Shown: positions 24,172 through 55,545 of the stretch, piece by piece
How the letters are laid out: each line of letters starts with the position of its first letter
How positions within the stretch are numbered: the stretch's first letter is position 1
Assembly (NCBI RefSeq): GCF_003201675.2
Contig: NZ_CP029287.2
Span: 1-64,000 of the forward strand
Length of the DNA: 64,000 nt
Source of the DNA: Metallosphaera hakonensis JCM 8857 = DSM 7519
Lineage (GTDB): Archaea; Thermoproteota; Thermoprotei_A; Sulfolobales; Sulfolobaceae
Reading direction: 5' to 3'
Translations under genes and position numbers: made by a program
The notes under the pieces: model-generated
The model's input: only the letters and a program-made list of their open reading frames with translations
The model's database searches: none
Told to the model about the DNA's origin: nothing

Positions 24172-25525
24172 GTGAACTCACCCCGCCCTTACGGACTGGG
24201 CTTCCTGCTTCCTAGCTCCACCTTGCCAGTACCGAAGTACCGGTAGAGGGCGGAACTCCACAGGCCCTAAGGGTCGCACCGACCCCGATCTACGTAAGAT
24301 GTTCAGGGAGGCGTTGTAATCACGGTCTGTGATCCATCCGCATCGTGGACAGGAGAACACTCGATCGAGGAGGGTTAGGTCTTCCTTCACGTAACCGCAT
24401 TTGGCGCAGGTTTTAGACGTGTACGCCGGATCCACAAGGGCGATGGATTTACCGTGCTTCTCCATCTGATACTTCAAGATCATCTTGAGCTCGTGGAAGG
24501 CGACGTCATGGAGTCTCATCCTCATCCTTCGGAGGGAGTTGCCCACGAGCTTCTTGACGTTTATGTCCTCCATAACGAGGACGTCGTAGTTCCTTGCAAA
24601 GTGTTTACCTAACCTCATGTAGAGGTCTTTCCTCAGGTTCTTGAGGTGCTCGTAGGCCTTGGCTAACTTGACCTTTGCTTTGAACCAGTTCTTGGAGAGG
24701 AACTTCTTCCTGGACAGGATTCGGTGTAGGTGCCTCACCTTCCACAAGGCCTTCTCGTAAGGCTTCAGGTTGGGGAAGTACTCCCCATGGGACGTCATGA
24801 TGAGGGTCTTGACACCAACATCAAGTGCAGTTACCTTGTTGACCTGAGGTAGCTTGGGGAACTCGTAATCGACCACGAAGGAGATGTAGATCCTCCCCGA
24901 AGGCATCAACTTCACGATCACTCTCTTTACCTTATCAAGGGGGAAGTCCCTATGCACCAGAACCTTGAACACCCCAAGGTGGGAGAGGCTCAGCTTCATC
25001 AACTTCTTGGGGTGGCCCTCCCTCGCCTCCCTGCTATTCTTCCTGATTATCTTCGCGCTCAGCACCTTCCATCCGCTCTGCGGGTACACAAACGAGTACC
25101 ACCTGTGGGGCTTCCTCTCCTTGGGGAACCTGGATAGTCCCTTGAAGAACCTCTCCCTAGCCTCGTAGAAGCGATCTGCAACGTTCTGCGCCACCTGAGA
25201 GTGCATTTGTTTATACTCCCCGTCCTGCTTCCTCAGGTCTAGGGCTAGTTGTCTCAACTGGGTTTGATTCAGACCTTTTCCATCTCTTGCATAGAAATAG
25301 GAGTCTGCCCAACGCAGGGTGTTATACAGCTCACACGCCATCCTTAACTGGGCCTTTAACGCCCTCAACGTTTGCGAATTTGTGTAGGCTCGAAACCTGA
25401 ATCCTACGTCAGGCATTAGGAGAATTTTGAAGAGCCGATATTTAAACTTATACAAAGGGGGCTATCCATCCCCTCCCTGACTGAAGGGGTCTTTCGCCCC
25501 CTTTGAACCCCCATTAAGATAAACA
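24172..25525 (-). mobile_element. IS200/IS605-group element with tnpB only
   Basis: On the minus strand the left end reads gtttatcttaatgggggttc followed by a hairpin-forming ggcgaaagacccctt region. The right end reads ggcggggtgagttcac. The same LE recurs at 28370, 32571, 52102 and 55276, and a similar RE at 52421-52432. There is no tnpA, so mobility would need a TnpA from elsewhere. Confidence 0.8.
24178..25455 (-). CDS. tnpB: TnpB RNA-guided endonuclease (OrfB), apparently intact
   Basis: A 425-residue TnpB, the ancestor-type relative of Cas12 that cuts DNA directed by an omega RNA made from the element's right end. RuvC-I is [12 protein letters not shown] near residue 213 and RuvC-II is [12 protein letters not shown] near 294. 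The zinc finger CAKCGYV...CPRCGW lies near 358-378, and Ruv[14 protein letters not shown] ends the domain, so all three acidic residues are present. The C-terminal tail overlaps the right end, where the omega RNA would arise. It is the only complete TnpB of at least three in the window. Confidence 0.9.
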
Positions 25526-28369: not shown

Positions 28370-28594
28370 TTCGCTTTATCTTAATGGGGGGTTCCAAGGG
28401 GCGGAAGACCCATCCTCGAGGACGGCTCAGGAATCCTTTGCGAATTGCATTTTCGGGATCTCAATTACACTTATTCAGTGTATAAATTATTGGATATATT
28501 TCGGTGAAATTAAGAGGAATGAAGATGAGTGTAATATTATTACGATTATGAGAAAATAGGTCAATAGGTTGTAGGGGAGTGTTCTCATGCAGTC
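28370..28594. repeat. Composite of IS fragments: IS605 LE, IS256-like end, IS1 end
   Basis: 28370-28424 is an IS605-type left end (tttatcttaatgggg, ggcggaagacccatcc). 28425-28574 matches the left 150 bp of the IS256-like element at 36370 (ggacggctcagg start, ending ggttgtag). 28575-28594 is the first 20 bp of the IS1 end. The LE/IS256 junction is repeated identically at 32571-32778. Confidence 0.7.
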
Positions 28595-28813
28595 AGTGGT
28601 GTTTCACCAATTAAGTTCATCTAGATGATATATAATTTGTACTTTTAATCATTGATTGATATAGAGTAAATATTGATTAAACATTATGAAACATAACATG
28701 TTTAAGTATTTTTAGACATATTTAGCCAGTATATTCGATCAGGATCAGTGGATTATGAATTTTTCTCACGTGGTTGGGAGGACGTGCATAGCCCACCCTG
28801 CACGCCCCGGTTT

Positions 28814-32570: not shown

Positions 32571-32975
32571 AAGGAATTTATCTTAATGGGGGTTCCAAGG
32601 GGCGGAAGACCCATCCTCGAGGACGGCTCAGGAATCCGTTGCGAATTGTATTTTCGGGATCTCAATTACATTTATTCGATATACAAATAACTGGATATAT
32701 TTCGGTGAAATTAAGAGGAATGAAGATGAGTATAATATTATTACGATTATGAGAAAATAGGTCGATAGGTTGTAGTAGGGTCGATTCAGGTTTCCATTGC
32801 GAATTGTAATTATGGCAAAGATAGATCGAATAAAGGTAATTGTTAAGCGCGAATCCTCACCCAGTCCATACGAGGATATTCAATTAAATACATGCTATTT
32901 TGATAAATAAATTGAATTTACAAAGGAGACGTGAATCGCCCTGTAGTAGAGGGCCACGGCCCGCGCGATCTGGAT
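32571..32975. repeat. Second IS605-LE/IS256-end composite with nested MITE-B
   Basis: 32571-32620 is an IS605 left end and 32621-32778 an IS256-like end, the same junction as at 28370. The IS256-like sequence continues at 32942-32975 (agggccacggcccgcgcg) after MITE-B. Confidence 0.7.
32779..32941. repeat. MITE-B copy 3 (163 bp) with 8-bp target duplication
   Basis: ggtcgattcaggtttccatt to gagacgtgaatcgccc, flanked on both sides by the perfect direct repeat tgtagtag (32771-32778 and 32942-32949). Its insertion in IS256-like sequence can be read directly by comparison with 36500-36560. Confidence 0.85.
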
Positions 32976-52101: not shown

Positions 52102-52432
52102 TTTATCTTAATGGGAGTTCAAAGGGGGCGGAAGACCCCACCCGCGAGGGTGAGGATGGATAGCCCCCTTATAGAAATCTTTTTATGACTCTGTGTCAAA
52201 AAATCTTCTTAGACCTTGGCTGTAAGAGCTGGGTCAGTACCCTCGGGACTGGGGGAACTTAAGCCTGTAGAGAGAAAACCCTCCGTAACCTCTCTTCCAC
52301 ACGGGGCATCACAGAACGGTTCCGTTCGATGGGACCTCCGCTGTGGGTGAAGGGGGATCGAGGTTTCTCTGAGAAGCAGGAAATCTCCATCGCGAGATGG
52401 AGATGCACCGTCGTAATGACGGGGTAGTTCAC
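52102..52432 (+). mobile_element. tnpB-less IS605-type element with structured right end
   Basis: The left end tttatcttaatgggagttc plus ggcggaagaccccacccgcg matches the TnpB element at 24172-25525. The right end gacggggtagttcac corresponds to its RE. The 331 bp between encode no protein. Instead they hold strong hairpins, for example ATCTCCAT-cgcgag-ATGGAGAT (52383-52404) and CCGTC-gtaat-GACGG (52408-52422), just where a TnpB omega RNA would lie. Confidence 0.75.
52200..52432 (+). ncRNA. Possible orphan omega-RNA-like transcript
   Basis: GC-rich stretch with several complementary segments (ggactgggggaac, ggttccgttcgatgggacc, aaatctccat/atggagat) ending exactly at the RE. In TnpB elements the omega RNA scaffold ends there and the guide is the next 15-20 nt outside (starting tggtttctaagaac). 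Expression is not shown. Confidence 0.35.
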
Positions 52433-52532
52433 TGGTTTCTAAGAACTTATTTTACAGAACCTTAGATGGATCCACGGTATATGCTGTAAAATGGGTACCT
52501 AAGGTGAGCTGGACTCCAAACGGTGATAAAAC

Positions 52533-55275: not shown

Positions 55276-55320
55276 TCCACCAGGTGAAGTCTTCCGCCCC
55301 TTTGAACTCCCATTAAGATA
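55276..55320 (-). repeat. IS605-type left-end fragment
   Basis: On the minus strand gtttatcttaatgggagttc then aaaggggcggaagac, as at 52102 and 25480-25520; the rest of the element is absent. Confidence 0.65.
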
Positions 55321-55545
55321 AACCCCTGTTACAACTTTCATGAGAATGGAACCTTAATCGGTTAGCAGATGATCTAACATGATTTCCACATCTGTCTCTA
55401 AGGTGAAGTTAGTTTTCCTACACTTACATGATGTGACGTTACAAGAGGGAATCTTTCTCCCATTTGATCCAGACCCTAGATTTTCCGCGAGAGTGAACAA
55501 CAGTGTCCCATATCCACTTTTTTACTTCCTCTCAACTTTCTCCAT

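Follow-up and report, generated by a model that had tools for sequence, protein, structure and literature searches.

The element at 52107-52432 (forward strand) of the window, that is, of the 64,000-nt stretch of the Metallosphaera hakonensis genome analyzed here, is a TnpB-less element of the IS200/IS605 type, 326 bp long, whose interior holds a structured RNA descended from the omegaRNA of TnpB elements. It belongs to a family in which this RNA structure has been selected after the loss of tnpB, a promoter-like site stands at the archaeal distance and an empty insertion site exists in a plasmid. We assign a probability of roughly 0.55 to the reading in which this orphan omegaRNA, carried by a non-autonomous element of the SMN1 kind, serves a TnpB in trans: the RNA would be transcribed, loaded into TnpB and used to cut sites free of the element. 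A wider proposal, which we put at slightly under even odds, is that the RNA represents an unnamed, phylum-wide family that originated from omegaRNA, resides in IS605-like elements without TnpB and has an apical module of its own; it would use TnpB from elsewhere to drive these elements through chromosomes, plasmids and viruses.

The element is immediately preceded by TTTAT (52102-52106, forward strand), a target-adjacent motif (TAM) of the solo-TnpB type, at the position where most relatives have TTTAA. The original prediction had extended the element over 52102-52432; an element is indeed present, but it starts at 52107 and the five bases before it are the TAM. The left end (52107-52170, forward strand) contains an IS605-type hairpin, AAGGGGGC...GCCCCCTT, and the right end two hairpins, ATCTCCATC/GATGGAGAT and GCACCGTCGTAATGACGGGGT (52383-52425, forward strand), identified by folding and covariation. 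As had been proposed, these last hairpins run up to the right end, which closes with GTTCAC (52427-52432, forward strand). The comparison of copies identifies these six bases as the end of the element and also as the 3′ end of the RNA scaffold, in line with SisTnpB7, whose guide begins after UUCAC (PMC11043419). The absence of a protein was likewise confirmed, with no ORF of at least 80 aa in 52107-52432. Elsewhere in the window, a left-end remnant of the same type, with core and right end missing, was found at 55283-55323 (reverse strand), and two near-identical left ends (TTTATCTTAATGGGGG..TTCCAAGGGGCGGAAGACCCATCCTCGAGG) sharing an interior of about 200 bp, with neither omegaRNA nor right end, were found at 28375-28730 and 32577-32900 (forward strand); the latter pieces are perhaps another non-autonomous or decayed family.

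Across the host genome, a single contig of 2.54 Mb, there are two long relatives of the element (87% and 85%), one decayed copy and about 25 left ends, besides right ends that are joined to TnpB genes. Matches were obtained in 17 of 31 Sulfolobaceae genomes, in some of them through a TnpB-linked right end alone, and the orphan-specific module described below was present in 14. Around 65 distinct homologous copies from relatives, plasmids and viruses were compared; they share the left-end hairpin, a core of about 225 nt and the terminal GTTCAC, followed by unrelated flanks, and the left flanks place TTTAA or TTTAT before nearly all of them. They include copies in Acidianus tailed spindle virus, in uncultivated virus contigs and in the S. 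islandicus plasmids pHVE14 and pARN4 (both exactly 321 bp). Plasmid pARN3 provides the empty site of the pARN4 copy, TTTAA being followed there by TGAAGTTAAGAACCC without interruption, and other plasmids do likewise at lower identity. The comparison of this empty site with the 321-bp insert implies entry directly after TTTAA without target duplication. Hairpins near both ends, entry 3′ of a short constant motif and the lack of target duplication are features shared with IS200/IS605 elements moved by a Y1 TnpA. In two virus contigs (IMGVR_UViG_3300027933_000001 and 3300027932_000001) several identical copies occupy different TTTAA sites, which suggests recent transposition within viruses. Judged by size (321 bp in the plasmids, 326 bp here), host, class (no transposase gene) and partner (an ISC1733-type TnpA+TnpB in the genome), and not by the sequence of SMN1 itself, the family is most likely SMN1, a non-autonomous element of 320 bp described as mobilised by the ISC1733 transposase (PMC3718332).

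The structured core, i.e. the orphan omegaRNA and predicted body of the transcript, covers about 225 nt (52208-52432, forward strand), as supported by covariation. The RNA of 52205-52432 folds with -94 kcal/mol (z = -3.4). An alignment of 20 copies supports 74 pairs (91.7% paired), 15 of which show compensatory change; when copies from two further Sulfolobales families were included, 73 pairs were formed in 91.5% of the cells, with compensatory change in 24 pairs and 62 cells changed on both sides. For this larger set, none of 500 shuffles reached any of the measures and the slid alignment was at most 53% paired; as shuffles ignore relatedness, the argument is carried by the sliding control and by the number of independent pairs. 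Both alignments consist of TnpB-less copies only, taken as the better-aligned subsets of a full alignment diverged by indels, and hence the pairing has been maintained after tnpB was lost. Two long-range helices, P3 (CCTGT 52264-52268 / GCAGG 52376-52380) and P4 (AGAGAAAACC/GGTTTCTCT, within 52264-52380), both on the forward strand, are common to the TnpB-linked omegaRNA. Compensation is striking in two GC-rich relatives (L218 and L233, genome G040), where the whole helix is replaced, with GGGCGGCC/GGCCGCCC in place of AGAGAAAACC/GGTTTCTCT. Rfam gave no match at the gathering cut-off and nothing credible at relaxed E, the haloarchaeal sotRNA included.

The scaffold is homologous in sequence and structure to the omegaRNA of TnpB-linked elements. 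The 3′ omegaRNA of the ISC1733-like tnpB starts with CCTGTGG, and P4 appears as CAGG/CCTG, GGGG/CCCC or CGGG/CCCG in the TnpB-linked forms of different genomes and as AGAG/CTCT at the same place in the orphan; it pairs in nearly all TnpB-linked forms, one of nine (L151) giving just a 4-bp exact helix. Furthermore, a covariance model built from orphans alone (R1) matches TnpB-linked omegaRNAs with 30-35 bits (E 6e-6 to 2e-7). The hairpin H1 (GACC.TGGCTGTAAGAGCTGGGTC, 52212-52235, forward strand) descends from a hairpin within the tnpB coding sequence, CCTACAAGGCTGAAAGAGCCGGTAGG (codons SYKAERAG), located some 320 nt before the right end in tnpB; four pairs of H1 show compensatory change. One copy from the same genus (L072) is a plain internal deletion that fuses the H1 hairpin to the omegaRNA, and two others (L065 and L080) have a tnpB-like H1 together with the orphan apical module. 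The orphan core retains two modules that lie apart in the tnpB mRNA, the mid-ORF hairpin and the 3′ omegaRNA, and has an additional apical domain. A reRNA of about 176 nt was reported to be sufficient for SisTnpB7 (PMC11043419), and H1 falls outside this span.

A putative archaeal BRE/TATA (GAAATC TTTTTAT, 52174-52186, forward strand; AGAAACNTTTTTATA in relatives) lies about 25 nt before H1. Of the 20 copies scored, 16 have a AGAAACNTTTTTATA-like site with a spacing of 22-25 nt to H1; about nine more copies did not fit the motif used. Such a spacing is the usual geometry of archaeal promoters and puts the predicted transcription start at H1. At the opposite end, the variable flank TGGTTTCTAAGAACTTATTT (52433-52452, forward strand) is the predicted guide, its position being assigned by analogy to SisTnpB7. 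The flank of the pARN4 copy matches the empty site of pARN3, TTTAATGAAGTTAAGAACCC, behind the TAM, as expected of a guide. For the window copy, guide matches in its own genome with up to three mismatches equalled those of a reversed-pattern control, so that a role as regulator, also suggested in the original prediction, gains no support; within the genus no empty site was found for this copy, its downstream flank being absent from the relatives. Two further matches were dismissed as chance: one of 17 nt between guide and a viral contig, preceded there by TTTAA, where the ORFs look like those of a bacterial podovirus-type phage (GroES-like, scaffold-like) and have no homology to the window, and a match to the site of a viral copy (L238) where flank homology is absent. 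The element itself is safe from cutting because TTCAC occupies the TAM position (PMC11043419). The cognate TAM of ISC1733-type TnpB is TTTAA, and its last base matters (PMC11043419); with its TTTAT, the window copy may offer such a TnpB only a weak target.

The apical module (about 52279-52362, forward strand) is found in TnpB-less elements only, where it replaces the simple apical hairpin of the TnpB-linked omegaRNA; it was absent from every TnpB-linked copy inspected. Its tip is drawn with uncertainty because an alternative upper hairpin, GGUUCC/GGAACC, is paired in 97% of the cells and favoured by distant members. In a second TnpB-less family of the same genus (L192-L197, G007), the same module is accompanied by another 5′ part and by only one hairpin at the right end, which makes the module common to separate element families; it also occurs in other Sulfolobales families. 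With model R1, it was recovered in 17 of 398 Thermoproteota genomes, belonging to several families. At several of the distant loci, the left end carries TTTAA and a site resembling a promoter is present; at those inspected no recognisable TnpB lies beside the RNA, and at L270 a TnpB is located more than 1 kb off, on the other strand and with its own right end. TnpB is present in 16 of 17 RNA-bearing genomes tested (18 of 18 within the order), in all 31 Sulfolobaceae and, outside the family, in four of four RNA-bearing genomes versus 96 of 183, a co-occurrence that is confounded by phylogeny. Nine of the 14 Sulfolobaceae with the apical module have no close (at least 60%) ISC1733-type TnpB, and their other TnpBs are at most 48% identical in the best long matches. 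We also considered that SMN1-like copies might always track an ISC1733-type TnpB, which is ruled out by the many copy-bearing genomes without a close one.

The partner named in the original prediction was the solo TnpB at 24178-25455 (reverse strand; Pfam TNB and OrfB_IS605), both ends of which the element was said to keep. The TAM and the outer tip of the left end are indeed of the 24178 type, but the right end and the RNA core match those of two TnpA+TnpB elements, located at 250 and 655 kb of the host genome, with alignment scores of 100-104 (shuffles up to 30) versus 27.5 for the solo TnpB (shuffles up to 24.5), which is about chance. The inner portion of the left end, which contains the putative promoter, is likewise of the 655/250 kb type, so that the window copy is chimeric. 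TTTAT is associated with solo TnpB, and TTTAA with TnpA+TnpB elements, in S. islandicus (PMC10640517). Model R1 gives 31.3 bits for both the 655 and 250 kb omegaRNAs of the host. The 24178 element has four siblings, two of which score 29.7 bits, and at 24178 itself a search of the window gave no match. Structural similarity is clear for the ISC1733-like TnpB at 655855-657078 (within the element at 655.8-657.5 kb); the lack of similarity between right ends that would have refuted the original prediction holds only weakly for 24178. That the orphan RNA works with the solo TnpB at 24178 is thus quite improbable in spite of the TTTAT, the left tip and the two siblings, and more so as, in S. islandicus, the overlapping transcript seen for TnpA-linked TnpBs was reported to be lacking for the solo (IS1341-type) ones (PMC11043419). 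The solo TnpB and its siblings (377905, 1789025, 2442414 and 2536295) are five near-identical copies, and all three Y1 TnpA genes found in the host are located elsewhere. Three other TnpB-less elements of the host (G000:C1 2214566-2214912, reverse; 2326721-2327059, forward; about 1946700-1947052, forward) have a 3′ part that resembles omegaRNA of the 24178 type. Their left ends are TTTAT-like and the RNA upstream differs, which makes them a second orphan family of the host.

Two further explanations dispense with guided cutting. The element could be an ordinary MITE, in which TnpA would need the DNA ends alone and the interior would be a passenger fossil of the 3′ end of the parental tnpB; SMN1 was described as non-autonomous and mobilised by the ISC1733 transposase (PMC3718332), most copies are diverged, and many genomes bear copies without a close ISC1733-type TnpB. 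However, a fossil interior would hardly show compensatory changes in the helices of TnpB-less copies or a module conserved phylum-wide. Recognition of hairpins by TnpA does not require long-range helices, and P3, P4 and the apical domain are superfluous if the ends alone count. We consider this explanation unlikely, and to the same degree that of a decoy or regulator, in which TnpB, or a different protein contacted via the apical module, would be occupied by the orphan RNA and the activity of TnpB or TnpA dampened. The module being restricted to orphans and strongly conserved in primary sequence (CCTCCGTAACC, CCACACGG, CCGCTGTGGGTG, GGGATCGAG) does suggest a dedicated binding site. Nevertheless, right end, TTCAC and adjacent variable flank are all retained, as a guide RNA requires, and drive fits the copies in viruses and plasmids better.

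The existence of an orphan omegaRNA in a TnpB-less element, as originally predicted, is strongly supported by the compensatory changes, the homology to TnpB-linked forms, the promoter in register and the phylum-wide spread. Regarding its service to a TnpB in trans, we count in favor the compensatory pairs, the covariation of P4 among TnpB-linked forms, the R1 matches, the L072 deletion, the spacing between TATA and H1, the pARN3 empty site, the presence of TnpB in 16 of 17 RNA-bearing genomes tested and the TnpA and TnpB of the host (three Y1 TnpA genes in total and an open ISC1733-like TnpB). Against it we count the nine of 14 genomes without a close ISC1733-type TnpB, the confounding by kinship, the TTTAT site and the orphan-only apical module, for which a simple reuse of TnpB does not account. 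According to this trans-acting model, tnpA and tnpB would have been lost from an element of the SMN1 kind while the omegaRNA transcription unit was kept and maintained, the left end combining TnpA recognition with an archaeal promoter. Transcription would proceed from H1 through the scaffold and the right end into the flank, which would become the guide; the TnpA of an ISC1733-like element would mobilise the orphan element in trans. The orphan RNA would be bound by a TnpB made in that cell, most likely the ISC1733-like one at 655855-657078, and this TnpB would cut element-free copies of the insertion site, recognized by TAM and guide, after which repair from an element-bearing copy would restore the element or element-free plasmids and viruses would be lost. 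SisTnpB7 is functional with a guide RNA supplied from a separate plasmid (PMC11043419), and TnpB has been described to work as a gene drive that spreads elements through plasmids by cutting the copies that lack them (PMC11870625).

If this is true, a MITE that has been known as inert DNA since 2007 would amount to a self-contained gene for a guide RNA with a borrowed nuclease, and an archaeal phylum, its plasmids and its viruses would carry a homing RNA family. This would also account for TnpB genes outnumbering active transposases. TnpB tools would gain a new scaffold module, and natural TnpB guides acting in trans would become available for study in S. islandicus, a tractable host.

With SMN1 of Sulfolobus and its relatives SMN2, which are likely mobilised by an IS200 transposase (PMC3839810), the family shares size, lack of protein, host range and the presence of an ISC1733-like element in the genome; SMN1 is treated in the papers found as a DNA element alone, and the orphan family adds to it a conserved RNA. 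No description of this RNA or of its omegaRNA descent was found in the open-access literature, which misses most subscription papers. The OMEGA systems of IS200/IS605 TnpB, such as SisTnpB1 and SisTnpB7, have the right-end hairpins, the TTCAC end, the adjacent guide, P3/P4 and the TTTAA/TTTAT TAM in common with the orphan, which differs from them by having no tnpB in cis, a mid-ORF H1 beside the omegaRNA, a larger apical module and a putative promoter of its own in register. Other protein-less elements of the IS605 type are PATEs and the stand-alone omegaRNAs of IscB elements. The orphans resemble these in being TnpB-less copies that bear the ends or the omegaRNA of an autonomous parent; unlike them, the orphan RNA evolves as a family of its own, which is spread across the phylum and includes a module that none of the inspected TnpB-linked copies contains.
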